Below are positions 14,110 to 30,546 of a DNA stretch of 64,000 bases, one piece after another. The stretch's first letter is position 1. Each line of letters begins with the position of its first letter. The notes beneath the pieces are model-generated. The model was not told the origin of the DNA. It did not search any database and saw nothing but the letters and a program-made list of their open reading frames with translations. A program made the translations under genes and the position numbers. Location of the stretch: the NCBI RefSeq assembly GCF_028282165.1, contig NZ_JANQIM010000025.1, forward strand, positions 62,001-126,000. The letters are read 5' to 3'. The DNA comes from Winogradskyella sp. (GTDB lineage: Bacteria > Bacteroidota > Bacteroidia > Flavobacteriales > Flavobacteriaceae).

Positions 14110-14129
14110 ACCTTAATTTATTCAAAACT

Positions 14130-14744: not shown

Positions 14745-14769
14745 GGTTCTAAAAACTTTCATTACTGAC

Positions 14770-15841: not shown

Positions 15842-15893
15842 GTTAAATTTTGTTTAACCTTAATTGAAAATAGTTAAACAATTTGTATCTTTA
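15842..15893 (+). promoter_or_regulatory. Regulated promoter of the TetR/photolyase cluster, copy 1
   Basis: The inverted repeat GTTAAAT-TTT-GTTTAAC (15842-15858) is followed by TTG (15864-15866, a -33-like element), a further GTTAAACA half-site (15873-15880) and TATCTTTA (15886-15893, a -7-like element). The same elements with identical spacing occur at 24982-25033. About 60 bp is conserved between the two sites although they lie 9.1 kb apart. It is proposed to be the operator of the TetR-type regulator encoded just downstream. Confidence 0.75.
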
Positions 15894-15911
15894 CATTGTA
15901 AAATAAGCACA

Positions 15912-16568
15912 ATGGCAAAGAAAAAATCAGTATCACAATCAGATATTATTGGGTTCTACATGGATTATGTATTGATGCATAACGAAAATCCCAAGTCAGT
16001 TTATGCTTTTGCAAAAGATAATAATTTTAAAGAGCAAAAGTTTTATGAGTTCTTTGCTTCATTCGACGCTTTAGAACAGTCTATATTCAAAATATTTTTT
16101 GACAATGCGCATGCAGTTTTAGAGAAAAGCGAAGATTATTTAAACTTCGACGCTAAGAACAAGTTATTAAGTTTTTACTTCACATTTTTCGAAATTCTAA
16201 CAGCAAATAGAAGCTATGTCAGTTATGCTTTAGAGGGACATAAATCCTCTTTAAAATCTCTCAAAACACTTATACACCTTAAAAAAAGGTTTGTCAACTA
16301 TATCGAGCACCTAAACATTAATACTATTGACCTGAAGCAAGAGCAATTGGTAAGGTTACAAAACAGGAGTTTAAAAGAATCTGCATGGTTACAGCTTTTG
16401 ATGACCATTAGATTTTGGTTAGATGACACATCACCTTCGTTTGAAAAAACAGATTTGTTTATTGAAAAATCGATTAAAGCCAGTTTCGATTTAATAGATA
16501 CAACGCCATTAAAAAGCATAATCGATTTAGGGAAATTCCTGTATAAGGAAAAAATGCACATGAATTAA
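15912..16568 (+). CDS. TetR/AcrR-type transcriptional regulator
   Basis: The ATG at 15912 gives 218 aa. A longer frame from 15864 would translate the promoter (-33 to -7 boxes), so it is rejected. The N-terminus has a TetR-like helix-turn-helix (SVYAFAKDNNFKEQKFYEFF, about residues 28-47) and the rest is the helical ligand/dimer domain. It lies directly behind a palindromic promoter that is duplicated before 25041. It is therefore the prime candidate regulator of both halves of the photolyase cluster. The next gene starts immediately after its stop. Confidence 0.82.
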   Translation: MAKKKSVSQSDIIGFYMDYVLMHNENPKSVYAFAKDNNFKEQKFYEFFASFDALEQSIFKIFFDNAHAVLEKSEDYLNFDAKNKLLSFYFTFFEILTANRSYVSYALEGHKSSLKSLKTLIHLKKRFVNYIEHLNINTIDLKQEQLVRLQNRSLKESAWLQLLMTIRFWLDDTSPSFEKTDLFIEKSIKASFDLIDTTPLKSIIDLGKFLYKEKMHMN

Positions 16569-17879
16569 ATGAAGACCATAGACAGTATACCAATAACAAA
16601 AATATCCCGAGCCTCAAAACTAGTGACTACTGGCGCTAAAGTTGGTGTAAATTATTTAAAATATTATGGCGACAAAATGGTGAGCTCCAAAGAAGAAGCT
16701 AAAGAGCGCCTTAATCAAAACAATGCAGAAGACATTTATGATAGTCTAAAAAAGCTAAAAGGAAGTGCATTGAAGGTTGCCCAAATGCTCAGTATGGAAA
16801 AAAGCATCTTGCCTAAAGCTTATGTAGAAAAATTTTCGTTATCACAATTTTCTGTGCCACCATTGTCACCACCATTGGTTATAAAAACATTTAAAAAATA
16901 TTTTGGGAAACATCCCGATGAACTTTTTGATACTTTCAACGCAACTTCAGTTAATGCTGCAAGCATTGGTCAAGTACACCTTGCAGATAAGAATGGGAAA
17001 AAATTTGCTGTGAAAATCCAATATCCTGGAGTTGCGGAGAGTATCGCTTCAGACTTAGCATTAGTTAAGCCTGTGGCCATTAAAATGTTCAATATCAAAG
17101 GTAAAGATTCTGATAAATACTTTAAGGAAGTTGAAGATAAACTAGTAGAAGAAACCAATTACCTACTAGAAATAGAGCAGAGTAAAACGGTAGTTGAAGC
17201 CTGTAAGCACATTCCAAATCTTAAGTTTCCAAATTATTATGAAGCGTATTCCTCCGAGCGCATCATTACTATGGATTACATGAAAGGAGAACACCTTTCC
17301 GAATTTGTGGCACATAATACCAACCAACAAATATCTAACAAACTCGGACAGGCCCTTTGGGATTTTTATATGTATCAAATCCATAAACTTAAAAAGGTGC
17401 ATGCAGATCCACATCCCGGTAATTTCTTAATTTCTGAAGATGGTGAATTAATCGCTTTAGATTTTGGTTGCATGAAATCCATTCCAGATGAGTTTTATGT
17501 CCCCTACTTTGAATTGGCTAAAAAAGAAAGTATCGAAAATCCAGAGGTGTTTAGAGCTAAAATGTACGAGCTGGAAATTCTCCGACCTGACGACTCTGTA
17601 GAAGAAATTCAGTTTTTTAGTGATATGTTTTATGAATTGTTGAGTCTCTTTACACAGCCGTTTCATAATGACGTTTTTGATTTTTCAAATCCAGAATTTT
17701 TCAATCAAGTGGCAGAAATGGGACAGAAGTATTCTAAAAGCACCGAATTGAGGAACATGAACGGCAATAGAGGGTCTAAGCATTTTATCTACATCAACCG
17801 TACATTTTTTGGCCTGTACAATCTAATGTTCGATTTAAAGGCAGAAAATATCAAAATCAATAATTTCATCAATCTATAA
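16569..17879 (+). CDS. ABC1/AarF/UbiB-family atypical kinase
   Basis: This 436-aa protein has the ABC1 hallmarks: a KxGQ-like motif read here as LKVAQML (Gly replaced by Ala), the Ala-rich loop AASIGQVH, a nucleotide Lys in FAVKIQYPG (about residue 149), DPHPGNF (about 278-285), and LDFGCMK (about 296). ABC1 kinases support quinone synthesis (UbiB/COQ8) and, in plastids, photo-oxidative stress tolerance. It is packed with no gap between the TetR and flavin reductase genes, so all three are cotranscribed. The role in light or oxidative stress is inferred from context. Confidence 0.88.
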   Translation: MKTIDSIPITKISRASKLVTTGAKVGVNYLKYYGDKMVSSKEEAKERLNQNNAEDIYDSLKKLKGSALKVAQMLSMEKSILPKAYVEKFSLSQFSVPPLSPPLVIKTFKKYFGKHPDELFDTFNATSVNAASIGQVHLADKNGKKFAVKIQYPGVAESIASDLALVKPVAIKMFNIKGKDSDKYFKEVEDKLVEETNYLLEIEQSKTVVEACKHIPNLKFPNYYEAYSSERIITMDYMKGEHLSEFVAHNTNQQISNKLGQALWDFYMYQIHKLKKVHADPHPGNFLISEDGELIALDFGCMKSIPDEFYVPYFELAKKESIENPEVFRAKMYELEILRPDDSVEEIQFFSDMFYELLSLFTQPFHNDVFDFSNPEFFNQVAEMGQKYSKSTELRNMNGNRGSKHFIYINRTFFGLYNLMFDLKAENIKINNFINL

Positions 17880-18515
17880 ATGGCAACGTTTTCTTTAGAC
17901 GACATCAACAATATGCATCATTTATACCGAATCAACCTCATCAATAGTTGTTCTGGCTATAAATCCGCTAATCTTATTGGGTCTAAAGATAACTTTGGCG
18001 TCAGCAATGTTGCTGTTTTTAGTTCTGTAACACATTTAGGATCCAATCCTGCTTTGTTAGGTTTTTTCTTAAGACCAACCACAGTCATGAGAAATACTTA
18101 CGATAATATAAAAGCTACAGGAAAATACAGCTTAAACCATATCCATTTAGATATTCTTGAAGATGCACATCACACTTCCGCTAAGTATGACGCTTCGATA
18201 TCCGAATTTGATGTCACCGATCTTAAGGAAGAATATAAAGACCACTTTATAGCACCTTTTGTAAAAGGATGTCCTATACAAATGGCCATGGAATATGTAG
18301 AAGAATATCCCATAAAGGCTAATAACACCATATTATTGATTGGCAGAATATCAAAATTGTACGTTCAGGATGAGTTATTAGAAAAAGATGGCTTTATCAA
18401 TTTGTCTAAAGGCAAAGTAGCAACTATTAATGGTCTTGACGGTTATGCAGTACCCGAATTGAAAACCCGATTAGAATATCAAAGGCCTAAAGCAGAAATG
18501 ATGATTGACAAATAA
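17880..18515 (+). CDS. Flavin reductase-like (FMN-binding split-barrel) protein
   Basis: This 211-aa protein of the flavin reductase-like family starts with the ATG directly after the preceding stop. Family features include NSCSGYKSANLIGS near residue 22, PALLGFFLRPTTVMRNTYDNI-like substrate-loop residues (quoted in part) and NHIHLDILEDAHHTSAKY. Such proteins bind FMN and reduce free flavin with NAD(P)H. In this cluster of four flavin-dependent photolyase-type proteins it could supply reduced flavin. That link is inferred. Confidence 0.85.
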   Translation: MATFSLDDINNMHHLYRINLINSCSGYKSANLIGSKDNFGVSNVAVFSSVTHLGSNPALLGFFLRPTTVMRNTYDNIKATGKYSLNHIHLDILEDAHHTSAKYDASISEFDVTDLKEEYKDHFIAPFVKGCPIQMAMEYVEEYPIKANNTILLIGRISKLYVQDELLEKDGFINLSKGKVATINGLDGYAVPELKTRLEYQRPKAEMMIDK

Positions 18516-18519
18516 TAAC

Positions 18520-18646
18520 TGTCATATCGAACATTGGTTGAAATTAAAATACATTTTGATTGAGAGCGCACTACGAAGTAGTCTAGACATCTCGCTTATA
18601 ATTAAATTATGAGATTTCTCAACAGCTTTGCCAATTCGAAATGACA
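18520..18646. repeat. Intergenic palindromic element with TGTCATnTCGAA termini
   Basis: Terminal inverted repeats TGTCATATCGAA and TTCGAAATGACA enclose about 100 bp with internal complementarity (GAGATGTCT-like and GAGATTTCTC segments). There are no coding features. It lies between the flavin reductase and the SDR gene, inside the presumed operon. Confidence 0.65.
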
Positions 18647-18666
18647 AATAAGGATGAAAACGAAGC

Positions 18667-20088
18667 ATGAAAATACTTATCACAGGTACAACGGGCTACA
18701 TTGCCAAACGATTAGCACTTCAGCTACTCGAAGCTAAGCACAAGCTTATTTGCTGTGTCCGTGATATGAATCGCATTCCAGATGAAATCGAAGAACACCC
18801 CTTATGCACATTCATTAAAATAGATTTTCTTTCTCCAAAAGCGAATCAGATTCCAAAAGATATTGATGCAGCCTACTACCTCATTCATTCTATGGCTACA
18901 AATACAGAAGATTTTGAGGATTTAGAACGCCAATGTGCATCCAACTTTAAACATCTTATCGAGACTACAAACTGCAAGCATGTCATCTATCTAAGTGGCA
19001 TAGTGAATGCTAATTCATTGTCTAAACATCTAAAATCGCGCTTACAAGTTGAGGAAACCTTAAAATCCAAAAAATATGCGCTAACCACCTTTAGAGCAGG
19101 TATTATAGTAGGAAGTGGCAGTGCCTCATTTGAAATCATAAGAGATATCGTCGAAAAACTACCATTGATGATTACTCCAAAATGGCTGAACACTAAATCA
19201 CAGCCTATAGGCATCAGAGATGTTCTCACCTATCTATCAGAAGCTATCGGAAAAGAACAACTCTACAATAAATCGTACGACATCTTTGGCCCAGAAATAC
19301 TGACTTATAAAGATATGCTATTGCAATTTGCCGAAGTTCGCGGGTTAAGAAGATATATCTATACACTACCTGTATTGACACCAAAACTATCATCGTATTG
19401 GCTATATTTTGTAACGTCAACATCATTTCAATTAGCACAGGCTTTAGTGGATAGCATGAAGGTGGAAGTCATTGGGAAGCCTAGTGATATCAATGAGCAC
19501 ATAGATATTGAACCAATGACCTATAAAACGGCAGTTAATCTGGCCTTCCAGAAAATACAGCAGAACTCGGTGATCTCTAGTTGGAAAGATGCTGTTAGTA
19601 GTGGCGTTTTCAGTGATCAACTATCAAAACACATCGAATTACCTCAATTCGGTTGTTTTAAGGATGTGCGCTATAGAAAGGTAAAAGATGAGCAATTCAC
19701 CATTAATAAAATCTGGAGTATTGGTGGACGTAATGGTTGGTACAGTTTCAACGGATTATGGAAATTGAGAGGCTATGTCGATAAATTATTCGGTGGTGTT
19801 GGCCTTCGAAGAGGAAGAACACACGATACATATTTAGAACCAGGTGACCCCTTGGATTTTTGGCGTGTACTATTTGCCGATAAAAAAGAAAAACGCTTAC
19901 TGCTATTTGCAGAGATGAAATTACCCGGCGAAGCATGGTTAGAATTTAAAATTGTAAAAGATAAACTCTACCAGCGTGCAGTTTTTAGACCAAAAGGCGT
20001 TTGGGGACGCCTTTATTGGTATATGGTTTTACCATTCCACGCTTTTGTTTTTAAAGGAATGATAAATGCATTGGTAGAATCAAAATGA
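18667..20088 (+). CDS. SDR/NAD(P)H-binding protein with C-terminal DUF2867 domain
   Basis: This 473-aa protein has an N-terminal NAD(P)-binding extended-SDR-like domain (ITGTTGYIAKRLA at residues 4-16; about 1-290) similar to NmrA/YbjT-type proteins. The C-terminal half is DUF2867 (about 310-470, with IWSIGGRNGWY and PGDPLDFWRVLF). The substrate is unknown. Proteins of this form are frequent beside cryptochrome/photolyase genes. It is separated from its neighbours by palindromic elements rather than terminators. Confidence 0.85.
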   Translation: MKILITGTTGYIAKRLALQLLEAKHKLICCVRDMNRIPDEIEEHPLCTFIKIDFLSPKANQIPKDIDAAYYLIHSMATNTEDFEDLERQCASNFKHLIETTNCKHVIYLSGIVNANSLSKHLKSRLQVEETLKSKKYALTTFRAGIIVGSGSASFEIIRDIVEKLPLMITPKWLNTKSQPIGIRDVLTYLSEAIGKEQLYNKSYDIFGPEILTYKDMLLQFAEVRGLRRYIYTLPVLTPKLSSYWLYFVTSTSFQLAQALVDSMKVEVIGKPSDINEHIDIEPMTYKTAVNLAFQKIQQNSVISSWKDAVSSGVFSDQLSKHIELPQFGCFKDVRYRKVKDEQFTINKIWSIGGRNGWYSFNGLWKLRGYVDKLFGGVGLRRGRTHDTYLEPGDPLDFWRVLFADKKEKRLLLFAEMKLPGEAWLEFKIVKDKLYQRAVFRPKGVWGRLYWYMVLPFHAFVFKGMINALVESK

Positions 20089-20098
20089 TATTGAATAT

Positions 20099-20225
20099 CA
20101 TTTCGACGGAGTGAAATATGAGTGACGAGAAACCGTAGGTTCAGCGAAGCTAAATCACATATTCATGCTGTTGGATGAGATATCTCATTTTAGCCTGTCT
20201 TAATTGACAGTTGAAAAATGTAATA
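20099..20225. repeat. Intergenic palindromic element, degenerate
   Basis: CATTTCGACGGAGTGAAATATGAGTGACGAGAAACC-type sequence (positions about 20099-20134) is followed by GAGATATCTC and a small hairpin (CTGTCTTAATTGACAG). It resembles the elements at 3252 and 18520. There is no ORF. Confidence 0.45.
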
Positions 20226-20246
20226 TGACAAATTAAAATTCAGAAA

Positions 20247-20396
20247 ATGCCAAAAGGCACTAAGAAACAATATCTACCAGAAAAGGTATGTTTTGTTTGC
20301 AAACGTCCTTTCTCTTGGAGAAAAAAATGGGCAAAGGATTGGGATAATGTAAAATATTGTAGTGAAAGATGCAGAAGACAGAAAAAACAAATCTAG
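20247..20396 (+). CDS. DUF2256 domain protein (small zinc-ribbon-like)
   Basis: This is a 49-aa basic protein from the ATG at 20247. It has [14 protein letters not shown] in the first half and YCSERCRRQ in the second, i.e. CxxC plus CxxxC, fitting a zinc ribbon with a Trp/Lys-rich centre. This matches DUF2256, a family commonly found next to cryptochromes. Its 3' end overlaps the Cry-DASH start by 28 bp, so the two are translationally linked. Confidence 0.85.
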
Positions 20397-21673
20397 TTTG
20401 GTTTAGAAACGATTTAAGAACAATCGATAATGCCGTTTTAGCCGAAGCTAGCAAAAATGGCAACCGTGTTATAGGTCTATATTGCTTTGACCCAAGGCAG
20501 TTTCAAGTCCATTCCTACGGATTTAAGAAAACCGAGAAGTTTAGAGCAAAGTTCTTGATAGAAACCGTCATAGATTTAAAATCGCAATTAGATGCTTTAA
20601 ATATTGACTTGCTGGTTTATTATGAATTGCCAGAAACTATCATTCCTAAACTCTGTGAAATTCATAATATCTTTAGTATTTATCTTCAAAGGGAATGGAC
20701 TCAAGAAGAAGTTGATGTTGAAAATGTCGTGAAATCTAAATTGCCAAATATTAAATGGCATTCCATTTATAATCAATTTTTGTATCATCCAGATGATATC
20801 AATTTCGGAATAACAAATACACCTCAAGTATTTACCGTATTCAGAAAAAAGCTTGAAAAATACATTCCCATACGTGAAGAAGTTCAAACAAAACAGCAGT
20901 CTGAGGAAAATAGAATTGAAAATAACACCTCTATCCCTAGCCTATCTAATTTAGGTTTTGAAGATTTTGAGGTTCATCCGCATTCTGCATTTCCTTTTAA
21001 AGGTGGCGAAACCGCAGCTTTGACTCGTTTGAATGATTATTTCTTCGGTACAAAAAAATTAGGTTTCTATAAAAAGACCCGAAACGGTTTAGCTGGTACC
21101 GATTACAGCTCTAAATTCTCGCCATGGTTAGCCAATGGCAGTATTTCTGTACGAACGGTTTATTGGCAAGTGAAACAATTTGAAAAAGAGCACTTCAAAA
21201 ATCAATCGACCTATTGGCTCATTTTCGAGTTGATTTGGCGTGACTATTTCAAATATATTTCGCTAAAGTATGGCAACCATATATTTAAATTGGGAGGTAT
21301 TCTTTCAAAAGATTATGAATGGTCTACCAAGCCATCTCAAATTGATCAATGGATTAATGGAGAGACATATTCTGATTTTGTGAATGCCAATATGATCGAA
21401 CTCAAAGAAACAGGTTGGATGAGTAACAGGGGACGCCAAAATGTAGCCTCTTATTTTGCTAAAGAACTAGAGCTCGATTGGCGCATCGGTGCGTCTTATT
21501 TTGAGTCTCTACTTATCGATTATGATGTTCATAGCAATTATGGCAATTGGATGTATGTCGCTGGCGTGGGGAACGACCCTAGAGACCGCAAGTTTAATGT
21601 ACAACTGCAAGCAGAGCGCTATGATACTAATGGAAGATTTAGAAGGCTTTGGTTGCAACCGAGTTTGTTTTAA
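20369..21673 (+). CDS. DASH-family cryptochrome
   Basis: This 434-aa protein has the N-terminal photolyase alpha/beta antenna domain ([19 protein letters not shown]) and a C-terminal FAD domain. The DASH block is [19 protein letters not shown], then [11 protein letters not shown] and [16 protein letters not shown]. Cry-DASH proteins bind FAD and usually MTHF and repair CPD lesions in single-stranded or looped DNA; some act as light sensors. The frame overlaps DUF2256. It is the first of four photolyase-type genes in 10 kb. Confidence 0.93.
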
Positions 21674-21679
21674 AAAAGT

Positions 21680-21791
21680 CATTACGAGCCTGCCTGTCGG
21701 CAGACAGGGAATGAGGCACGCGATGTACTGAGCTTGTCGAAGTGAATGACGAAGTAATCTAAAAAAGATTGCTTCACTATGTGCGCAATGA
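21680..21791. repeat. Intergenic palindromic element with internal CCTGCCTGTCGGCAGACAGG hairpin
   Basis: The ends GTCATTACGAG and CGCAATGAC are near-inverted. Inside are the hairpin CCTGCCTG-TCGG-CAGACAGG and the pair GTAATCT/AGATTGC. The right end overlaps the upstream in-frame ATGs of the next gene, indicating that those are not the true start. Confidence 0.65.
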
Positions 21792-21805
21792 CAAAACCAA
21801 AAGAA

Positions 21806-23326
21806 ATGAAAAAGAAAGAAGCTATATTATTATTCCCGCATCAATTGTTTAAGAATTCCCCAATTCTAGAATTGGATTGTGACATCTATCTGGTTGAGGA
21901 ATTCTTATTCTTTAGACATTACAAATTCCATAAACAAAAAATTGCATTTCATCGTGCTACTATGAAAGCCTACGAAGATTATTTAAAATCAAAAGGCAAG
22001 CAAGTAAACTATATCGAAGCTACATCTGGTTTGTGCGATGTTAGAACATTGATTCCAAGTTTGGTTGCCGATGGATTAAAAAGACTTCATATCATAGACC
22101 CTACGGATAATTGGCTTCAAAAACACATTAATTCTGTTTCAAAATACATTACAGTGACGTGGTACGAAAATCCTTTGTTTATTAATTCAAAAGATGAACT
22201 AAAGTCGTTTTTTAAGCCATCAAAAAAGAAATTTTTTCAAACGGCATTCTACAAACAACAGCGAAAGGACAGGGATATTTTGATGTCTTCTGGTGAGCCT
22301 GTAGGCGGCAAGTGGACGTATGATACAGACAATAGAAAGAAATATCCGAAAGGCAAAATGCCACCAAGCATTCAATTTCCAGACAGAACTAATTATCATA
22401 TAGAGGCAGAAGACTATGTTAATCTAAATTTTGACAATCATTATGGTAAACTATCAGATTTCACTATTTATCCTATAGATTTTGACGCTTCTGAGTCTTG
22501 GCTACAAGAGTTCTTAGAAATTAGATTTCATGAATTTGGTATCTATGAGGATGCCATAGTGAAAGAAGAACATTTCCTTAACCATAGTTTACTTTCATCT
22601 CTAATTAATGTCGGATTGTTAAACCCTTCAGAAGTTATAGAAAAAGCTGTTGATTATGCTAATGAAAATGATGTCCCACTTAATTCAACTGAAGGCTTTG
22701 TAAGGCAGATTCTTGGTTGGCGAGAATTTATAAGAGGCGTATACGAAGTTAAAGGTACGGAAGAACGTACTAAAAATTTCTGGAAGTTCAATCGCAAAAT
22801 ACCAGCTTCGTTCTACAGTGGTACTACTGGCATTGAACCAGTGGATGACGTTATTAGAAAGGTGAATAAAACAGCTTATGCACACCATATAGAACGCCTA
22901 ATGATATTAGGAAACTTTATGGTATTGTGCGAATTCGACCCCGATGAGGTTTACAAGTGGTTTATGGAGCTATTCATTGATGCTTACGATTGGGTGATGG
23001 TCCCTAATGTATATGGTATGAGTTTGTATGCCGATGGCGGTTTAATGTCCACCAAACCTTATATCAGTAGCAGTAATTACATCATGAAAATGAGCAACTA
23101 CAGCAAAGGAGAATGGCAATCGACTTGGGATGGCTTATTCTGGACATTTATGGACAAGCATCGTGATTTCTTTTTAAGCAATCCAAGGCTAAGCATGTTG
23201 ATAAGAACTTTTGACAAGATGAGGCAGGATACTAAGGAAACGCATTTCGACCATGCAAGAGTTTTTTTAAAGAGTTTAGATAAAATGAACATCACTTCGA
23301 GTGATTTTATGAGTGAAGCTTTATAA
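21806..23326 (+). CDS. PhrB-like cryptochrome/photolyase lacking the [4Fe-4S] cysteines
   Basis: About 506 aa from the ATG at 21806; in-frame ATGs at 21779 and 21788 lie in a palindromic repeat. The fold matches the prokaryotic (6-4) photolyase/FeS-BCP group: an N-terminal DUF-like antenna domain, RQILGWREFIRGVYE, the double His in YAHHIERLMILGNF (about residues 359-360), and NVYGMSLYADGGLMSTKPY. In that group four Cys near residues 350, 438, 441 and 454 hold an iron-sulfur cluster. Here the matching regions read GTTGIEPVDDV and MSNYSKGEWQSTWDGLFW, with no Cys. It may repair (6-4) photoproducts or sense light without the cluster. Confidence 0.88.
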   Translation: MKKKEAILLFPHQLFKNSPILELDCDIYLVEEFLFFRHYKFHKQKIAFHRATMKAYEDYLKSKGKQVNYIEATSGLCDVRTLIPSLVADGLKRLHIIDPTDNWLQKHINSVSKYITVTWYENPLFINSKDELKSFFKPSKKKFFQTAFYKQQRKDRDILMSSGEPVGGKWTYDTDNRKKYPKGKMPPSIQFPDRTNYHIEAEDYVNLNFDNHYGKLSDFTIYPIDFDASESWLQEFLEIRFHEFGIYEDAIVKEEHFLNHSLLSSLINVGLLNPSEVIEKAVDYANENDVPLNSTEGFVRQILGWREFIRGVYEVKGTEERTKNFWKFNRKIPASFYSGTTGIEPVDDVIRKVNKTAYAHHIERLMILGNFMVLCEFDPDEVYKWFMELFIDAYDWVMVPNVYGMSLYADGGLMSTKPYISSSNYIMKMSNYSKGEWQSTWDGLFWTFMDKHRDFFLSNPRLSMLIRTFDKMRQDTKETHFDHARVFLKSLDKMNITSSDFMSEAL

Positions 23327-23330
23327 AATA

Positions 23331-23434
23331 GTATCGAGAAGTTGTATGGCTAGGGTTCTCGATAGCTCTGCTGAGCTTTGTCGAAGCACGTCCTGATCCC
23401 GATAATATTGTGACTGTAGGACACTTGAACTGAT
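23331..23434. repeat. Intergenic inverted-repeat element (TATCGAGAA type)
   Basis: TATCGAGAA (from 23331) pairs with TTCTCGATA further on. It is followed by GCTCTGCTGAGC, CCTGATCCCGATA and CACTTGAACTGATA. The order matches the element at 459-536. There is no coding potential. It separates two photolyase-type genes. Confidence 0.6.
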
Positions 23435-23449
23435 AAAAAAAGGAGTATA

Positions 23450-24940
23450 GTGACAACAAAAGAAAGCATAAATATTGTTTGGCTAAAACGCGATTTAAGA
23501 CTCGAAGACAACGAGGCCATTACTAATGCCCTAAAGTCTAAAAAGCGTACACTCTTACTTTACGTCTTTGAGCATATATTATTAAATGATGACCACTATA
23601 GCGAACGCCATTTCAATTTTATAAAGGAATCCATAAGAGATATCAACAATGAATTAAGAAGCTACAATAGTAAAATCCTCGCTGTGCTGAGCGACATACA
23701 AGGTGCGTTTAACTTAATCCAAGAATTCTATAAAATTAATACCATTTTTTCCCATGTTGAAACTGGCCTGCTAGTCACATACAATAGAGATAAAGAAATT
23801 AAGCGTTATTGCAGAAACAATATTATTAATTGGGTAGAAAGTAAAAATAATGGTGTAGAGCGCGGTTTGGCCAATAGGGAGAACTGGTTTGAAAATTGGG
23901 AAAACTACATGTATCAAGATCCTGAAGTATTTCAACCAAGAGATAATCAATTATTGAAACTGCCCGAAATTGAAACTTTGGAAAACGTTTTTACAATAGC
24001 CGACTTAGAAACACCCACGGACACAAAATTTCAAAAAGGAGGTAGCACTACAGGATGGAAGTACGCCAATTCTTTTTTAGAAAGTCGCCATGAAGAGTAT
24101 ATGTTTAATATTTCTAAACCTGAAGCGTCTCGTATAAGCTGTAGCAGAATCTCACCTTACATTGCCTGGGGTAATTTATCCATTAGGCAAGTATTTCAAA
24201 AGGCGCAAGAGGTAAAATCTGCCTCAAAAGACAAGCGCCATATAGGAGCATTTATCTCACGATTACGCTGGCAAGCTCATTTTATCCAAAAGTTTGAAAT
24301 GGAACATACCATGGAAAACGCTAGTGTTAATAAAGGTTACCATAAGCTAAAAAAAAGTATTTCTAATGAATACCAAAAGGCTTGGCGTGAAGGGCAAACA
24401 GGATTCCCTCTTGTTGACGCCAGTATGCGCTGTCTCATAGAAACAGGTTATGTAAACTTTAGGATGCGTGCCATGTTGGCATCATTCTTTACCCATATTC
24501 TATGGCAACCCTGGCAAGCGGCAACCACTCACCTATCCCAACAGTTTTTAGACTTCGAACCTGGTATTCATTTTCCTCAATTACAAATGCAAGCTGGAGA
24601 AACTGGCATCAATAACCTTAGGATTTACAATCCTACTATTAACAGTCTAAAGCACGACCCAGAAGCTGTCTTTATTAGAAAATGGGTGCCCGAATTGGCG
24701 CATTTAGACACACCTTTTGTTCATGAACCCTATCTTATGACAGAAATGGAACAGGCATTCTACAACTTTAAATTGGGTGTTGATTATCCAAATCCAATAG
24801 TAGACATCAAGGAGAACCGTAAAAGAGCCAGTGATATTTTATGGAATATGAAACAGGATCCGCAGGTTATAGCAGAAAGTTTCCGCATTTTAAAACGACA
24901 TACTCTTAAGGATAGAGATCGCATGCTAAGGAACGAATAA
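23450..24940 (+). CDS. Divergent deoxyribodipyrimidine photolyase/cryptochrome family protein
   Basis: This 496-aa protein starts at GTG 23450 with a clear ribosome site (AGGAG, 23441-23445). The N-terminal photolyase domain begins INIVWLKRDLRLEDNEAI. The FAD domain includes ISPYIAWGNLSIRQVF, GQTGFPLVDASMRCLIETGY and LRIYNPTINSLKHDPE. In class I photolyases the flavin-proximal stretch is NxGxWQWxAxxG. Here residues about 373-386 read HFPQLQMQAGETG, so the proximal Trp of the electron-transfer triad and the flavin-N5 Asn appear changed. It may be a sensor or use another electron path. The last gene before the second regulated promoter. Confidence 0.85.
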   Translation: MTTKESINIVWLKRDLRLEDNEAITNALKSKKRTLLLYVFEHILLNDDHYSERHFNFIKESIRDINNELRSYNSKILAVLSDIQGAFNLIQEFYKINTIFSHVETGLLVTYNRDKEIKRYCRNNIINWVESKNNGVERGLANRENWFENWENYMYQDPEVFQPRDNQLLKLPEIETLENVFTIADLETPTDTKFQKGGSTTGWKYANSFLESRHEEYMFNISKPEASRISCSRISPYIAWGNLSIRQVFQKAQEVKSASKDKRHIGAFISRLRWQAHFIQKFEMEHTMENASVNKGYHKLKKSISNEYQKAWREGQTGFPLVDASMRCLIETGYVNFRMRAMLASFFTHILWQPWQAATTHLSQQFLDFEPGIHFPQLQMQAGETGINNLRIYNPTINSLKHDPEAVFIRKWVPELAHLDTPFVHEPYLMTEMEQAFYNFKLGVDYPNPIVDIKENRKRASDILWNMKQDPQVIAESFRILKRHTLKDRDRMLRNE

Positions 24941-24981
24941 GCGTCCATGTTAACGTAATTTTCTTACATTCTTAATTCTGT

Positions 24982-25033
24982 GTTAAACTTTGTTTAACTT
25001 TAAATGAAAAAGGTTAAACATTTTGTATCTTTA
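24982..25033 (+). promoter_or_regulatory. Regulated promoter of the photolyase cluster, copy 2
   Basis: The perfect palindrome GTTAAAC-TTT-GTTTAAC (24982-24998) is followed by a GTTAAACA half-site (25013-25020) and TATCTTTA (25026-25033). The distance from palindrome start to -7 box is 44 bp, exactly as at 15842-15893, and the flanks TTTGTATCTTTACATTGTAA are shared. The coding ATG at 25041 follows closely, so the leader is very short or absent. Confidence 0.75.
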
Positions 25034-25040
25034 CATTGTA

Positions 25041-25472
25041 ATGATATTAAATACAACACATCACAATCCTGAGCACAAACAGATTATAGCTGACCTTATT
25101 GGCAGTCCTTTTAGTTTGGTACAAAAATTGAAAATGAATGGTGTGGGCTCAAAACGTATGATTGTTGACGAAGTAAGCCCTAACATGCAAAGCATGATAA
25201 ACAAAGTGTCTGATATCAATTATGCGAATATAGAATTAAGACCAAAAGGCATTTTGGTAATGATCAATCAAGGTTTGAAAAACTTTACATGGGTTATTCC
25301 TTATTATCAATTAGTCATATATAAGGTAAATGGTTCTAGTATTCATGCACAAGGAAGATTCATTCATTTTAGAAACAGTAAAACGTTTAGGGAAAATAAA
25401 AAGTTTTTTGATAAGCTGATGGATGAAAAAGTAAAGTACGACATGCAATATGCTATGCCCCAGGACATATGA
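25041..25472 (+). CDS. Conserved protein of unknown function, first gene of second light operon
   Basis: This is a 143-aa soluble protein from the ATG at 25041. The longer frame from 25023 would run through the -7 box and is rejected. It is a mixed alpha/beta protein without signal peptide, including an aromatic core (FTWVIPYYQLVIYKVNGSS) and a Lys/Phe-rich C-terminal helix. The family is not recognised. The stop overlaps the TIGR03643 start by 4 bp (ATGA), so the pair is coupled and probably functionally linked. Confidence 0.75.
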   Translation: MILNTTHHNPEHKQIIADLIGSPFSLVQKLKMNGVGSKRMIVDEVSPNMQSMINKVSDINYANIELRPKGILVMINQGLKNFTWVIPYYQLVIYKVNGSSIHAQGRFIHFRNSKTFRENKKFFDKLMDEKVKYDMQYAMPQDI

Positions 25473-25741
25473 TATTGGAAATAAAAGATATTGATAGGAT
25501 TGTGGAAATGGCATGGGAAGATCGTACACCTTTTGAGGCTATCACATTCCAGTTCGGACTTAAAGAGCAGCAGGTCATCGAGCTTATGAGGAAGGAAATG
25601 AAACCAAGTAGTTTCAGAATGTGGAGAAAACGTGTGCAAGGCAGAGCCACAAAACATAAAAAGAAAAGAACATTTGACAAAGGCAGATTTAAATGCTCGC
25701 GTCAAAGAACTATAACGAACAACTCTATTTCAAAACGCTAA
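25469..25741 (+). CDS. TIGR03643/DUF2805 family protein
   Basis: This 90-aa protein has an N-terminal helix-turn-helix-like region (IDRIVEMAWEDRTPFEAI, FQFGLKEQQVIELMRKEM) followed by a basic tail (VQGRATKHKKKRTFDKGRFK). It matches the small TIGR03643 family that frequently accompanies cryptochrome/photolyase genes. The basic charge and helical start would suit nucleic-acid binding, but no function is established. Confidence 0.85.
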   Translation: MILEIKDIDRIVEMAWEDRTPFEAITFQFGLKEQQVIELMRKEMKPSSFRMWRKRVQGRATKHKKKRTFDKGRFKCSRQRTITNNSISKR

Positions 25742-25796
25742 CACGTGCTTTGATTTAAGTTTGGAGTACTTAAAGACAGCACATTAAAAAGATTCT

Positions 25797-26489
25797 ATGA
25801 ACACAGAAACAATTTCCAAAAAAAATGGCCAGCATTTAAATGGTTTTAGTATCGAAGATATTGGAGATGACCATTTATTCACTTCATTAGACACACCTAT
25901 GAAAGCCAATGCTTTTGATATGCCTAATGAAGAAAAGAAAGAACGTATATCTATATTATTTTCTGAAATAATGGATGTTCTTGGCTTAGATCTCACTGAT
26001 GATTCATTAAAAGGCACACCAGACCGTGTAGCCAAAATGTATATTGAGGAAATATTTTCAGGACTAGATCCTGCAAACAAACCGAAAGTGGCCTTATTCG
26101 ATAACAAGTATCAATACAACCAGATGCTAGTTGAAAAGAATATTACCTTCTATTCTAACTGTGAGCATCATTTTGTTCCCATAATCGGAAAGGCACATAT
26201 TGCTTACAAATCTTCCGGGAAAGTTATAGGCTTATCAAAATTGAATCGTATTGTTCAGTATTATGCTAAACGCCCACAAGTACAGGAACGTTTAACAAAT
26301 CAAATAGCAAACGAACTAAAGACGGTACTTGGAACAGAAGATATAGCGGTAATTATCGATGCCAAGCATTTATGCGTATCCTCAAGAGGCGTCAAAGATG
26401 ATACTTCGGCTACAGTAACGACTTATTATGGAGGTGAATTTAATACACCCGAAAAAATCTCAGAATTACAAAACTATTTAAATGATTAA
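25797..26489 (+). CDS. folE: GTP cyclohydrolase I
   Basis: This 230-aa protein has the zinc/active-site motif NCEHHFVPIIGKAHIAY (Cys and His ligands), the second Zn Cys in AKHLCVSSRGVKD, and KLNRIVQYYAKRPQVQERLT. FolE converts GTP to dihydroneopterin triphosphate, the first step to folates and tetrahydropterins. In this cluster it may boost the pterin/folate antenna chromophore (MTHF) of the photolyases or a reduced-pterin antioxidant. It may be a second copy beside a housekeeping folE elsewhere. The N-terminal ~45 residues are variable. Confidence 0.93.
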   Translation: MNTETISKKNGQHLNGFSIEDIGDDHLFTSLDTPMKANAFDMPNEEKKERISILFSEIMDVLGLDLTDDSLKGTPDRVAKMYIEEIFSGLDPANKPKVALFDNKYQYNQMLVEKNITFYSNCEHHFVPIIGKAHIAYKSSGKVIGLSKLNRIVQYYAKRPQVQERLTNQIANELKTVLGTEDIAVIIDAKHLCVSSRGVKDDTSATVTTYYGGEFNTPEKISELQNYLND

Positions 26490-26492
26490 GCT

Positions 26493-26720
26493 ATGGATAT
26501 ATTAGAAAGAGCAGTTGAATTTGAAAACAGAAAGTTTTCATTCAAGACCACAAGCGACAGAATTTTAGCAGCTAGAGAGGCTAAAGAAATAATTCTAGGT
26601 GTTAACGAAATCTATAAGCAGAAAAAGGATTCTAAACTAATGGACTTAATGAAGCGTCTTACGGTTATAAAACAAAAAATCGAAAAACGCTTAAAAGGCA
26701 GACCATTAACGGCTGCATAA
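26493..26720 (+). CDS. Small helical protein of unknown function
   Basis: This is a 75-aa, Lys/Glu-rich, all-helical protein (DILERAVEFENRKFSFK, AAREAKEIILGVNEIY, LMKRLTVIKQKIEKRLKG). It starts 3 bp after folE and ends 9 bp before the SDR gene, so it is embedded in the operon. There is no signal peptide, cysteines or recognisable motif. Conserved placement is the main reason to call it. Confidence 0.7.
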   Translation: MDILERAVEFENRKFSFKTTSDRILAAREAKEIILGVNEIYKQKKDSKLMDLMKRLTVIKQKIEKRLKGRPLTAA

Positions 26721-26729
26721 ATAATAATA

Positions 26730-27413
26730 ATGAAGACTTTAATTGTGGTTGGTGGAAGCAAAGGCATTGGGAATGCAATCGTCTCGTCTTTGCTTTCTTC
26801 ACATAAAATCGTGAATATCAGCAGAACAGCTCCTGAGCAATCTCACGAAAATCTAACGCATTATAATTGTGATATTCTCGAGGATGAACTACCCGACATT
26901 GATATAGTAGATGGTTTGGTATATTGTCCCGGCAGCATCAATTTAAAACCAATCAACAGGCTCAGCGCCGAAGATTTTAAATCTGATTTTAATATCAATG
27001 TTATTGGCGCAGTTAAAACCATTCAAAAGTATTTGCCAGCCTTGAGAAAAGGTAACAAACCTTCTATGGTATTGTTTAGTACGGTAGCGGCAAAACTAGG
27101 TATGCCTTTTCATGCCAGTGTTGCGGCAGCAAAATCGGCAGTCGAGGGCTTAACAAAATCCTTAGGAGCTGAGCTTGCACCAACGATAAGAGTCAATGCT
27201 ATTGCCCCAACAGTAACAGATACCGATTTAGCGTCAAAATTACTGCGTAACGAACGCATGATCGAAAATATGAATGAGCGTCATCCGCTAAAAAAATACC
27301 TACAACCACAAGAAGTTGCAGATATGGCAGCTTTTTTACTTTCTGAAAAAGCAGCGTCTTTATCAGGACAAATATTTGAAATGGACTGTGGTATTGTAAG
27401 CTTCAAAATTTAA
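26730..27413 (+). CDS. Short-chain dehydrogenase/reductase
   Basis: This 227-aa classical SDR has the cofactor motif GGSKGIG (residues 8-14). The catalytic region is atypical: the Ser is in LFSTVAA, the expected Tyr-x3-Lys reads ASVAAAKSAVEGLTKSL (His/Ser-Val-Ala-Ala-Ala-Lys), and the Tyr seems absent. The C-terminus has the usual LSGQIFEMDCG. Next to folE, a pteridine-reductase-like role is conceivable but unproven. It has tight spacing to glutathione peroxidase (4 bp). Confidence 0.85.
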   Translation: MKTLIVVGGSKGIGNAIVSSLLSSHKIVNISRTAPEQSHENLTHYNCDILEDELPDIDIVDGLVYCPGSINLKPINRLSAEDFKSDFNINVIGAVKTIQKYLPALRKGNKPSMVLFSTVAAKLGMPFHASVAAAKSAVEGLTKSLGAELAPTIRVNAIAPTVTDTDLASKLLRNERMIENMNERHPLKKYLQPQEVADMAAFLLSEKAASLSGQIFEMDCGIVSFKI

Positions 27414-27417
27414 CCCC

Positions 27418-27957
27418 ATGAACCCACTCAAAGCTTTTATTGGTACACTTTCAGCTACTGATACTGATGTTACCCAAAAATCGTCAAAATCAATCTATGA
27501 TATAAAAATTAATAGCCTTCAAGGATACCCTATTGATTTATCGCAATTTAGAGGTAAAAAACTTTTGTTTGTAAATGTAGCTTCAAAATGTGGCTTCACG
27601 CCCCAATACAGAGAGCTTCAAAAATTATATGACGCATATAAGGATAGATTAACCATTATTGGTGTACCATGCAATCAATTTGGCAGGCAAGAACCTGGTA
27701 CTTCTGATGAGATTCAAGAGTTTTGCCGAGCCAATTATGGTGTTTCATTCTTAATGACCGAAAAGATTGATGTCAAAGGGGCTAATCAACATCCATTGTA
27801 TAAATGGCTAACTAAAAAAGCTATCAATGGTAAGCAAAATTCTACCGTGAAATGGAATTTTCAAAAGTATCTCATAGATGAAAATGGAGAATTTATAGAT
27901 TTCTTCTATTCCATTACGAAACCAACCAACCAAAGAATTACTAAATATTTAAACTAA
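27418..27957 (+). CDS. Glutathione peroxidase family protein (Cys type)
   Basis: This 179-aa protein has the peroxidatic motif NVASKCGFTPQY (Cys, not selenocysteine), the family signature GVPCNQFGRQEPG with a second Cys, and the Trp/Asn of the catalytic tetrad in VKWNFQKYLI. Bacterial members usually use thioredoxin rather than glutathione and reduce lipid or organic hydroperoxides. There is no signal peptide, so it is cytoplasmic. Placement among photolyase and TspO genes fits defence against light-generated peroxides. Confidence 0.92.
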   Translation: MNPLKAFIGTLSATDTDVTQKSSKSIYDIKINSLQGYPIDLSQFRGKKLLFVNVASKCGFTPQYRELQKLYDAYKDRLTIIGVPCNQFGRQEPGTSDEIQEFCRANYGVSFLMTEKIDVKGANQHPLYKWLTKKAINGKQNSTVKWNFQKYLIDENGEFIDFFYSITKPTNQRITKYLN

Positions 27958-27961
27958 AACT

Positions 27962-28129
27962 ATGTTTGGGCTATTTAAAAAAACATCGGAACTAGAAAAG
28001 CTTCAAAAACAATATGAAAAGCTGATGGCAGATTGGCATAAGCTTTCGACCACAAATAGAGCCGAAAGCGATAAAAAGTATTCTGAAGCACAAAAAGTAT
28101 TAGATAAAATCGAGGCTTTAAAACATTAG
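27962..28129 (+). CDS. DUF6435-like small protein
   Basis: This is a 55-aa frame from the ATG at 27962, starting MFGLFKKTSELEKLQKQYEK, then a charged helix with NRAESDKKY and VLDKIEALKH. It resembles the DUF6435/lacto-repeat-like short helical proteins. It starts 4 bp after glutathione peroxidase and ends 4 bp before TspO, so it is an operon member. The function is unknown. Confidence 0.75.
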   Translation: MFGLFKKTSELEKLQKQYEKLMADWHKLSTTNRAESDKKYSEAQKVLDKIEALKH

Positions 28130-28133
28130 CACC

Positions 28134-28598
28134 TTGAGCAAAACGGTCTATTTTATACTGTTTTTAATCATCAACTTTGGAGGACTTGCGCTTGGAAGCT
28201 GGTTGATGAACAATGGCCCGGAAACCCAATGGTACCAAGATTTAAGTAAAGCCCCATGGACACCACCTGGTTGGGTGTTTGGTGCCGCATGGACAACTAT
28301 AATGGTATGCTTTTCATGGTATTTAGCCGAGTTATTCCACAATAGAAGTTCAAAGTTTTTGTGGCTGGTCTATGGTTTTCAGGTGGTTTTAAATGTAGGA
28401 TGGAATTGGGTATTCTTCAATCAGCATCAAATCACTTTTGGGTTATTAGTGATTAGTCTTTTACTTTTAGTGATTTTGTATTTCTTTATTACCTTTAGAA
28501 ACGACCGTATAAAGTATGCCAAATACCTGTTAATGCCTTACTTAATTTGGCTTTGTATTGCTACATCCCTAAATGGATATATTGTACTTAACAATTAG
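28134..28598 (+). CDS. tspO: TspO/MBR family membrane protein
   Basis: This 154-aa protein starts at TTG 28134. It has five hydrophobic helices and the TspO signature WYQDLSKAPWTPPGWVFGAAW, quoted here only in part (PWTPPGWVFG), plus a Trp-rich QVVLNVGWNWVFF. TspO proteins bind porphyrins and act in tetrapyrrole and light/oxygen responses, for example as a negative modulator of photosynthesis genes in Rhodobacter. In this cluster it fits handling of photosensitising porphyrins. It is in an operon with GPx and DUF6435. Confidence 0.92.
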   Translation: MSKTVYFILFLIINFGGLALGSWLMNNGPETQWYQDLSKAPWTPPGWVFGAAWTTIMVCFSWYLAELFHNRSSKFLWLVYGFQVVLNVGWNWVFFNQHQITFGLLVISLLLLVILYFFITFRNDRIKYAKYLLMPYLIWLCIATSLNGYIVLNN

Positions 28599-28621
28599 TT
28601 TAAATTCGACTATCCTAAAAA

Positions 28622-29083
28622 ATGAAAATATATACACTACACAAAAAACAAAACCTACCAATATCGGTAGACGAAGCTTGGGACTTTTTATCAAGTCCTA
28701 AAAATCTTAAAACGATTACTCCAGACTACATGGGTTTTAATATACTCTCTGGTGCTGATAGACCAATGTTTCCTGGGCAAATTATTCAGTATATCGTAAC
28801 ACCTGTATTAGGTATTAAAACGAAGTGGGTCACCGAAATTACACATGTAAAGGACAAAGCGTATTTTGTTGATGAACAACGTTTTGGACCATATGCTTTG
28901 TGGCATCACAAACATTTTATTAAAGAAATTGAAGGTGGCATAGAAATGGAAGACATTATTGATTACAAAGTTCCATTGGGTATTTTAGGGCAAATGGTGC
29001 ATCCCATATTAGTGAAACCAAAACTTGAAGAAATCTTCAGTTACCGAACTAAGAAACTAGAGGAATTATTTGGCAAATATTGA
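28622..29083 (+). CDS. SRPBCC (START/Bet v1-like) family protein
   Basis: This 153-aa protein has an SRPBCC fold signature: VDEAWDFLSSPKNLKTITP at residues 18-36, central beta strands (VLGIKTKWVTEITHV, FVDEQRFGPYALWHHKHFI) and a long C-terminal helix (KLEEIFSYRTKKLEELFG). The ligand is unknown. Similar small SRPBCC proteins recur in photolyase/LitR-type clusters of other bacteria. It sits 23 bp after TspO and before a palindromic element. Confidence 0.85.
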   Translation: MKIYTLHKKQNLPISVDEAWDFLSSPKNLKTITPDYMGFNILSGADRPMFPGQIIQYIVTPVLGIKTKWVTEITHVKDKAYFVDEQRFGPYALWHHKHFIKEIEGGIEMEDIIDYKVPLGILGQMVHPILVKPKLEEIFSYRTKKLEELFGKY

Positions 29084-29162
29084 TCAACTAAATTGTAACT
29101 TAGAGTGATTTTGGAGTTATCGAAATCAAAATACATACTGATTGAAGATACTTAAAAATCAG

Positions 29163-29228
29163 TATCGAAAAATCTTACTCCCTTCTCGATACATCATGAC
29201 GTTAATCGCCAGAACACTCAAACTAACT
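29163..29228. repeat. Intergenic inverted-repeat element (degenerate TATCGAGAA type)
   Basis: TATCGAAAAATC and CTTCTCGATA form imperfect arms, followed by ATCATGACGTTAATC and CACTCAAACTAAC, matching the layout at 459-536 and 23331-23434. It sits just before the CPD photolyase. Confidence 0.5.
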
Positions 29229-29241
29229 AACAACCCTATAA

Positions 29242-30546
29242 ATGGATAAAAAAATCAACATATTTTGGTTTAGAAGAGATTTACGATTAGAGGATAACGT
29301 TGGTCTTTTTAATGCCTTGAACGGAGAACATGCTGTATTACCCATATTCATCTTCGACTCAGATATCTTAGATAAACTACCTAAAGATGATGCTCGAGTT
29401 TCGTTTATACACGAAACCCTTCAAAATATTAGGCAAAAATTGCAGGACGACTATGACAGTAGTTTAGCCATTTATCACGGTAAACCTTTGGATATATACG
29501 AGCAATTAGCTGAGGATTTTGATATTGATGTTGTTTATACCAATCATGATTACGAACCTTATGCTACCGAAAGGGATACAGAAACACGAACGTTTTTAGA
29601 ATCAAAAAACATTGGCTTTAAAACATTTAAAGATCAGGTTATTTTTGAAAAGGATGAGATTGTAAAAAAAGATGGTAATCCATATGTGGTATACACACCT
29701 TACATGCGAACTTGGAAGGAGACGTTTAAATCCATAGAATTTAAGTTCCATCCATCAGAACATCATCTTGAAAATCTAATAAAAACAAAAGATTTACCGT
29801 TTCTGAGCTTGTCTGATATTGGCTTTGAAAAATCATCCCAAAAGGTACTACCTTATAAAGTTAACCCTGAGCTTATACAAGACTATGAGGCTACTCGCAA
29901 TTATCCTGCAAAAGATGCCACATCCCGTTTGGGTCCACATTTAAGATTTGGAACCGTGAGCACTAGAAAGATGGTAGAAAAAGCCATTGCAGAAAAAAAC
30001 GAAATCTTTTGGCAAGAACTCATCTGGCGAGAATTCTTTATGCAGATCTTATGGCACTTTCCACATACTAAAGATCAGGCTTTTAAGTCTAAATACGATC
30101 GTATTCAATGGCGGAATGACGAAGCGGAATTTAAATTATGGTGCGAAGGAAAAACAGGTTATCCTTTGGTTGATGCCGGAATGCGACAGCTAAATGAAAC
30201 TGGATTTATGCATAACCGTGTTAGAATGCTAGTAGGCAGTTTTTTATGCAAACACCTTTTAATCGATTGGCGTTGGGGAGAAGCTTACTTTGCGGAAAAA
30301 TTGCACGACTACGAAATGGCTAGTAATATTGGTAACTGGCAATGGGTAGCAGGTTCTGGTGTTGATGCTGCTCCATATTTTAGGATTTTTAATCCTACAT
30401 CGCAAATTCAGAAGTTTGATAAGAATCTCGAGTATATTAAAAAATGGGTGCCCGACTTTCAGGAATTAACCTATCCACAACCCATAGTAGACCATAAAGT
30501 TGCTAGAGAACGCTGCTTACACACTTACAAATCCGCATTAAATTAA
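29242..30546 (+). CDS. phr: Class I CPD photolyase
   Basis: This 434-aa protein has the class I layout. The antenna domain starts NIFWFRRDLRLEDNVGLF. The FAD domain includes TSRLGPHLRFGTVSTRKM, LIWREFFMQILWHFP, GYPLVDAGMRQLNETGFMHN, and the flavin-binding NIGNWQWVAGSGVDAAPYF with the proximal Trp and Asn intact. It repairs cyclobutane pyrimidine dimers with blue/near-UV light. It is the best candidate in the window for true CPD repair. It is likely the last gene of the cluster; a terminator lies 120 bp downstream. Confidence 0.95.
   Translation: MDKKINIFWFRRDLRLEDNVGLFNALNGEHAVLPIFIFDSDILDKLPKDDARVSFIHETLQNIRQKLQDDYDSSLAIYHGKPLDIYEQLAEDFDIDVVYTNHDYEPYATERDTETRTFLESKNIGFKTFKDQVIFEKDEIVKKDGNPYVVYTPYMRTWKETFKSIEFKFHPSEHHLENLIKTKDLPFLSLSDIGFEKSSQKVLPYKVNPELIQDYEATRNYPAKDATSRLGPHLRFGTVSTRKMVEKAIAEKNEIFWQELIWREFFMQILWHFPHTKDQAFKSKYDRIQWRNDEAEFKLWCEGKTGYPLVDAGMRQLNETGFMHNRVRMLVGSFLCKHLLIDWRWGEAYFAEKLHDYEMASNIGNWQWVAGSGVDAAPYFRIFNPTSQIQKFDKNLEYIKKWVPDFQELTYPQPIVDHKVARERCLHTYKSALN

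Follow-up and report, generated by a model that had tools for sequence, protein, structure and literature searches.

The DNA analysed here (the window) is a 64,000-nucleotide stretch of the genome of a flavobacterium, Winogradskyella sp. (contig NZ_JANQIM010000025.1; the whole genome, labelled G000, comprises 4.0 Mb in 48 contigs). At positions 15842-30546 it carries two neighbouring operons rich in photolyase genes, which are predicted to be regulated together through two copies of one operator, probably read by LitR, a MerR-type protein encoded elsewhere in the genome. The cluster consists of 18 genes, all on the plus strand, as are both operators. Promoter/operator 1 (15842-15901) is composed of an extra GTTAAA box, the dyad TTGTTTAAC-N14-GTTAAACAA (15850-15881) and, just downstream, the -7 box TATCTTTA. 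It is followed by genes for a TetR-fold protein with the C-terminal domain TetR_C_23 (15912-16568), an ABC1/UbiB-type atypical kinase (16569-17879; PF03109), a flavin reductase-like protein (17880-18515; PF01613), an NAD(P)-binding epimerase-like protein with DUF2867 (18667-20088), a small four-cysteine DUF2256 protein (20247-20396; PF10013, 79 bits) overlapping the start of Cry-DASH (20369-21673; TIGR02765, 498 bits against a cut-off of 317), a PhrB-like prokaryotic (6-4) photolyase (DPRP) without Fe-S cysteines (21779-23326) and a divergent photolyase/cryptochrome with a GTG start (23450-24940).

Promoter/operator 2 (24982-25041) has the same build, with an extra GTTAAA box, the dyad TTGTTTAAC-N14-GTTAAACAT (24990-25021) and the -7 box TATCTTTA. 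The first gene of its operon codes for a small protein of no recognised family (25041-25472; 143 aa from ATG, searched with one extra codon from a start at 25038). Next come a TIGR03643/DUF2805 protein (25469-25741), the GTP cyclohydrolase I gene folE (25797-26489), a 75-aa protein of no recognised family (26493-26720), a short-chain dehydrogenase (SDR; 26730-27413), a glutathione peroxidase (27418-27957), a small protein of the Lacal_2735 family (27962-28129), TspO/MBR (28134-28598), a further conserved protein (28622-29083) and a class I cyclobutane pyrimidine dimer (CPD) photolyase (29242-30546). Four photolyase-family genes thereby lie within 10.2 kb. A first-pass annotation of the window had listed these genes, and all those it named are present on the plus strand where it placed them; its label SRPBCC for the protein at 28622-29083 could not be confirmed, as this protein gave no match in Pfam or NCBIfam at E values up to 0.01.

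Loci of relatives were fetched by means of the PhrB-like protein, the best 80 of 257 confirmed ones in named records being used; of these 80, 60 reach a length of 19 kb or more. The full set of 18 genes, each with no less than 40% identity, is found in 32 of these long loci. The gene order and strand of the window are kept in 30 of the 32 complete loci; the two out of order (L056, L066) differ by the position of the gene for the 75-aa protein, a second copy of which lies further on. Linkage of the cluster genes exceeds chance. The window's own PhrB-like protein has its nearest relatives among named records in Winogradskyella, at 86-87% identity. The first-pass annotation had read the cluster as one devoted to light and photo-oxidative stress and had proposed a comparison of gene neighbourhoods; this comparison finds the linkage conserved and supports the cluster as a real unit.

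The two operators belong to a repeated block of 60 nt: positions 15842-15901 recur at 24982-25041 with 90% identity, and the dyad core common to both can be written as TTGTTTAAC-N14-GTTAAACA(A/T). Two such dyads in the 64-kb window compare with 0.01 expected. The Winogradskyella genome has four exact copies of GTTTAAC-N(10-20)-GTTAAAC, each with a spacer of 14 bases, and none of the reversed control. Among the relatives, if at most two mismatches in 18 positions are allowed, 42 of 43 loci have the dyad ahead of the TetR gene, and 44 of 50 have it ahead of the gene that opens operon 2 in the window. Two of the six loci missed have an operon 2 without folE and other genes; in the other four, all marine, the gene in question is not the first. 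At the same tolerance, the check on internal genes found a dyad upstream of DUF2256 in one of 67 cases and upstream of TIGR03643 in two of 56. A scan for exact GTTTAA-N16-TTAAAC covered 790,835 bases in the 37 long loci holding both the TetR gene and folE, that is both operons. All 69 dyads found precede one of the two operons by no more than 150 bp; they are present at both in 32 loci, at the first only in three and at the second only in two.

The extra box (TGTTAA) starts nine bases ahead of the dyad at both operons, with a conservation per position of 60-80% at operon 1 (35 sites) and 93-100% at operon 2 (41 sites). On the other side, a -7 box TANNTTT starts at the fourth or fifth base past the dyad in 30 of the operon 1 sites and 39 of the operon 2 sites. 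A -33 promoter element of the usual type shows no clear conservation within the photolyase operators of the relatives. Co-regulation of the two halves of the cluster, already suggested by the first-pass annotation, is what two shared operators predict.

The dyad is also found at litR and crtI. At the start of litR, the opening letters of the gene (...ATGAACAA; in one case GTGAACAA) serve as the right half of the dyad in 29 of 30 loci, always in the same register and with two or three mismatches. A second dyad, with at most two mismatches, fills the gap between litR and crtI in 25 of the 30; of 27 crtI sites, 26 have the -7 box within the dyad, starting at position 17. Among 28 further litR loci, 26 have a dyad with at most three mismatches near the start, 25 of these sharing the register (shuffling would give 0.33), and 15 have a gap dyad (0.10 expected); as 16 of the 28 belong to one genus, they do not amount to 28 independent cases. 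It seems that the N-terminus of LitR is fixed by an operator half-site within the first codons of its gene. Some genomes carry ATGATAAACAA at the litR start instead, by which the half-site is restored.

The distribution of the dyad was surveyed in 149 genomes of the family, one per genus, with the pattern read backwards as control. There are 328 sites against 69 in the control, and 118 genomes with at least one site against 55. In the relatives' loci and litR loci treated above, the operator is counted at more than 100 promoters, those of the TetR gene, operon 2, litR and crtI. Sixty regions with sites, selected by choice from those listed, were inspected. Outside the cluster, their sites lie in the litR-crtI gap and upstream of genes for fasciclin lipoproteins, GLPGLI proteins and others, and a few are intragenic. 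The exact dyads of the Winogradskyella genome outside the window are located upstream of genes for a beta-lactamase-fold protein (G000:C8:49175, L001) and a GLPGLI family protein (G000:C47:332167, L004). In eight loci (L135, L140, L149, L151, L154, L169, L183, L186) the dyad stands at lipoprotein genes divergent from an mnmA-like gene, named by sight; the three of these lipoproteins that were examined are fasciclin-domain proteins. Fasciclin-type lipoproteins with the dyad are possibly light-regulated surface proteins.

Proteorhodopsin genes present another group of targets. In LitR-bearing genomes with a rhodopsin gene, a dyad (at most three mismatches, within 300 bp) is found in 13 of 24, with 0.31 expected by shuffling; for rhodopsin genomes without LitR the count is two of six (0.12 expected), both of these genomes being incomplete. 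On two contigs of metagenome-assembled genomes (L075, L077), proteorhodopsin, a dyad, blh, a dyad and the photolyase cluster follow one another in a single run, part of which is also seen in L078 and L080. In the Winogradskyella genome, two imperfect tandem dyads are situated between blh and proteorhodopsin (G000:C10:54631-54697), 7 kb before the window.

A LitR match was obtained in 121 of the 149 genomes, 111 of them close by our own cut, and TetR_C_23 in 95. Sites (control in brackets) number 261 (49) in the 86 genomes with both a close LitR and the TetR protein, 49 (8) in the 25 with a close LitR only, 11 (3) in the nine with TetR only and 7 (9) in the 29 with neither; six of the 11 TetR-only sites come from G079 and G147, both of them incomplete. 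Sites are more numerous in genomes with a close LitR than in all others (Mann-Whitney p = 8e-14). The form of the site also varies, in part, with that of LitR. Upstream of the TetR gene, the dyad is exact in 12 of 13 close-LitR genomes taken and has one mismatch in the remaining one. At the TetR promoters of seven genomes without a close LitR it is exact in one (G025), changed in three and absent from three; the changed dyads were found by scan in G038 and G066 (TTGTCTAA...) and read by eye in G040, which has a similar one with a 15-base spacer. Six of ten divergent litR genes are preceded by dyads resembling TTGTC(T/A)AA...TTAGACAA, some of them deviating by one or two letters. In ten close LitRs the recognition helix is HTIRIWEKRY, and in all seven aligned divergent ones it is (H/P)TLRKWE(T/S/E)RY, which suggests a partial covariation of operator and recognition helix. 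A fixed dyad over the start codon of litR, together with this partial change of operator and helix, is, as read from the sequences, a pattern of self-regulation.

LitR of the Winogradskyella genome is a protein of 302 aa, encoded directly before crtI on contig C22, outside the cluster. It is composed of MerR (PF13411, 56 bits) and B12-binding_2 (PF02607, 39 bits) domains, both above cut-off; in the same domain search PF02310 was unmatched. Its best NCBIfam match is CarH (NF052513), with 66 bits against an equivalog cut-off of 400, so that the two are homologues but not one equivalog. The AlphaFold2 model (mean predicted local distance difference test score, pLDDT, 84.9) is closest in fold to Thermus CarH: full-length CarH chains take the first 12 places among its Foldseek matches (E 1.7e-14 to 1.5e-11), with template modelling (TM) scores of 0.50-0.63 for the complete chain and of up to 0.83 when only the B12 domain is compared. 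The key adenosylcobalamin (AdoCbl) residues of CarH are W131, E141, H142 and H177 (PMC11796333; this and the following papers are cited for the accessible parts of their text). Among the 40 rows of the close-LitR alignment, six of which are repeats of a locus, the equivalents W143, E153 and H193 are kept in all 40 and H154 in 39, and all four positions are also kept in the seven divergent LitRs. AdoCbl can probably be made, because an adenosyltransferase is present in the Winogradskyella genome and in 137 of the 149 surveyed. Class II LitR proteins have lost the second B12 subdomain; here, the His177 motif ExHxxG is kept and the CarH fold extends over the whole protein. Nor do the sites, which read TTGTTTAA(C/T)-N14-(G/A)TTAAACAA, correspond to the class II operator T(G/A)TACA-N12-TGTA(C/T)A.

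On this evidence we consider it probable that LitR reads these operators. The two operons are predicted to be that part of a LitR (MerR-B12) regulon which serves photorepair and antioxidant defence; the regulon would also cover litR, crtI and, in many genomes, proteorhodopsin and blh. For LitR binding, repression and an AdoCbl-mediated response to light we infer the following course. In the dark, AdoCbl-loaded LitR would sit on the dyad and block expression, at the photolyase operons from a position immediately before the -7 box, at crtI by covering the -7 box and at litR by covering the start codon. These are three different positions suited to blocking, and therefore a repressor would fit better than a MerR-type activator. 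In light, the cobalt-carbon bond would be broken and LitR released, after which photolyases, the pterin supply through folE, peroxidase, TspO, carotenoid genes and proteorhodopsin would be made together. The AdoCbl light step, taken alone, we hold to be only moderately probable, somewhat above an even chance.

In the first-pass annotation, the cluster had been thought to be run by the TetR-type protein that heads operon 1. TetR repressors often bind dyads upstream of their own genes. This protein does have an overall TetR-like fold and the dyad in its own promoter; furthermore, site counts of the LitR-only (25) and TetR-only (9) genomes do not differ significantly (p = 0.12), so that counts alone do not separate the two candidates. 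Yet dyads persist in the 25 close-LitR genomes without TetR (49 against 8 in the control), they occur at litR, crtI and proteorhodopsin, and in three Polaribacter loci the operon 1 dyad is retained directly before flavin reductase, with TetR and ABC1 missing at the locus. In the protein itself, a Pfam search at E up to 1 found no recognisable TetR_N helix-turn-helix domain, and the net charge of the N-terminal helix-turn-helix region is -3 (mean of -4 over 43 relatives). Control by the TetR-fold protein appears highly improbable to us, and we propose that it is a member of the regulon and not its master. The operator stands on litR and crtI and goes with LitR across genera; this also leaves no support for the first-pass view of the cluster as a mere analogue of LitR systems, the operator being linked to a MerR-B12 protein of LitR/CarH-like type whose gene lies outside the cluster. 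The association of sites with LitR is correlative, and several sites belong to unrelated genes (GLPGLI, beta-lactamase-like, fasciclin), as they might if the dyad were that of another regulator which also controls litR, LitR being merely part of the same regulon. Such a regulator would have to account for an operator that partly changes along with the recognition helix of LitR and for a dyad held in fixed register across the start codon of litR, and we find it quite improbable.

Several observations nevertheless weigh against control by LitR as outlined above. In the Winogradskyella genome itself, the litR-crtI gap has no dyad, the litR-start site has three mismatches, and the proteorhodopsin/blh sites have two or three, a level at which this genome gives 15 sites against 10 in the reversed control, so that weak sites of this kind are not individually significant. 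A good dyad before proteorhodopsin is missing in 11 of the 24 LitR-bearing genomes, two of which (L289, cut at the gene start, and L291, with a partial gene) cannot be judged. G025 has a standard dyad before TetR although its LitR is only distant, the TTGTC-type dyad is absent at four of the ten divergent-LitR loci (L243, L246, L249, L250), and the covariation may in part reflect common descent. The weakest step of the mechanism is release by light. His132, the second cobalt ligand in light in the bis-His switch of TtCarH, is replaced by Gln in 40 of 40 close-LitR rows and by Gly in seven of seven divergent LitRs; it is required for the light switch of Thermus CarH, whose H132A variant stays largely tetrameric in light (PMC10442372). 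LitR might thus bind the dyad as a sensor of B12 status or as the effector of another photoreceptor, like the class II LitRs of Pseudomonas, which use a LOV partner in place of B12 (PMC9758184); the unmatched PF02310 would agree with this. Its targets, however, are light-protection genes, and an earlier contrary report, according to which H132A does fall apart in light, is mentioned in PMC10442372. For the light step, we regard this alternative as somewhat unlikely.

The Pseudomonas class II proteins PplR and PmlR (PMC9758184) have similar targets: they are MerR-type LitR repressors, their light-induced targets include phrB, cryB and folE, and their operator lies near or over promoter elements. 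This operator, however, is TGTACA-N12-TGTACA, compared with TTGTTTAAC-N14-GTTAAACAA in the window; the proteins lack the second B12 subdomain and work with a LOV protein, and the accessible text does not list proteorhodopsin as one of their targets. CarH/LitR of Thermus, Bacillus and Myxococcus (PMC8156234, PMC10442372) share with the flavobacterial protein the MerR helix-turn-helix, four-helix and Rossmann B12 domains, the carotenoid gene targets and an operator overlapping the promoter. The CarH operators described in these papers consist of three or four 11-bp direct repeats, whereas the flavobacterial one is an inverted repeat with an extra box, and His132 of CarH corresponds to Gln in flavobacterial LitR. 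In proteorhodopsin-positive Flavobacteriia, photolyase and photolyase-related genes were reported to cluster by proximity and to co-occur with proteorhodopsin, as in our loci; the accessible part of that report deals with co-occurrence and describes neither operator nor regulator (PMC5932025). The putative regulon described here is thus of the LitR/CarH type but has a new operator; it belongs to Bacteroidota and would link photorepair with carotenoids and, in many genomes, with proteorhodopsin.

A search of open-access papers, with subscription journals mostly outside its reach, yielded no regulator by which proteorhodopsin, carotenoids and photorepair would be switched by light in flavobacteria. 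Light-induced carotenoids are described in Chryseobacterium, where known car/lit genes were not found and a new regulator was proposed (PMC7064467). With a candidate regulator now named and an exact operator located at so many promoters, the question of regulation becomes directly testable. For the family as a whole, we give an even chance to the broader proposal that one B12-based LitR without the His132 switch, acting through an inverted-repeat operator half inside its own start codon, turns on proteorhodopsin/blh, carotenoids, photorepair, pterin supply and several surface proteins in light. If true, phototrophy would be tied to the supply of vitamin B12.

Aligned to 9hnk, the PhrB-like protein has lost the four cysteines that ligate the [4Fe-4S] cluster, which sets it apart from FeS-BCP. 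The loop aligning with three of the four was located in 77 of the 80 loci and contains no cysteine in any of the 77; the 24 residues preceding the AHH motif are likewise free of cysteine in all 45 loci in which this motif was located. Loss of the Fe-S cluster was considered as a novelty and rejected, because prokaryotic (6-4) photolyases of subgroup M, lacking the same cysteines, have already been described (PMC9178010). The enzyme of the window resembles subgroup M in these four missing cysteines and is not a new class; it differs, as far as the accessible text goes, in its setting, a flavobacterial cluster that also contains Cry-DASH and a divergent cryptochrome. Several Flavobacteriales also have a photolyase-like protein that is absent from the genes of the window. 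In L075 (6685-7785) it has about 370 aa and, by Pfam, only the part binding flavin adenine dinucleotide, without an antenna domain; proteins in L068, L070 and L094 are similar by eye. In these loci it precedes the divergent cryptochrome or flavin reductase.

The TetR-fold protein (15912-16568) gave no sequence match to solved structures at E up to 10. Its score against the COQ9 profile (PF08511) is 15.0 bits, below the cut-off of 20.5; in the comparison of folds, ranks 4-6 by Z go to structures of human COQ9 (12.6-12.8), a level which according to the tool perhaps reflects merely a shared helical arrangement. The ABC1 kinase gene directly follows that of the TetR-fold protein in the relatives' loci holding the latter (15912-17879 in the window). 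The two resemble a COQ9/COQ8-like pair and may form a module for lipid handling. Directly upstream of the cluster, window positions 13639-15810 hold genes resembling those of an arsenate-reductase-type phosphatase and an SBF/ACR3-type transporter. Further on, the minus strand at 44145-49106 codes for a protein of 1653 aa with an RHS-repeat-like appearance, alongside a second very large protein (49128-52928).

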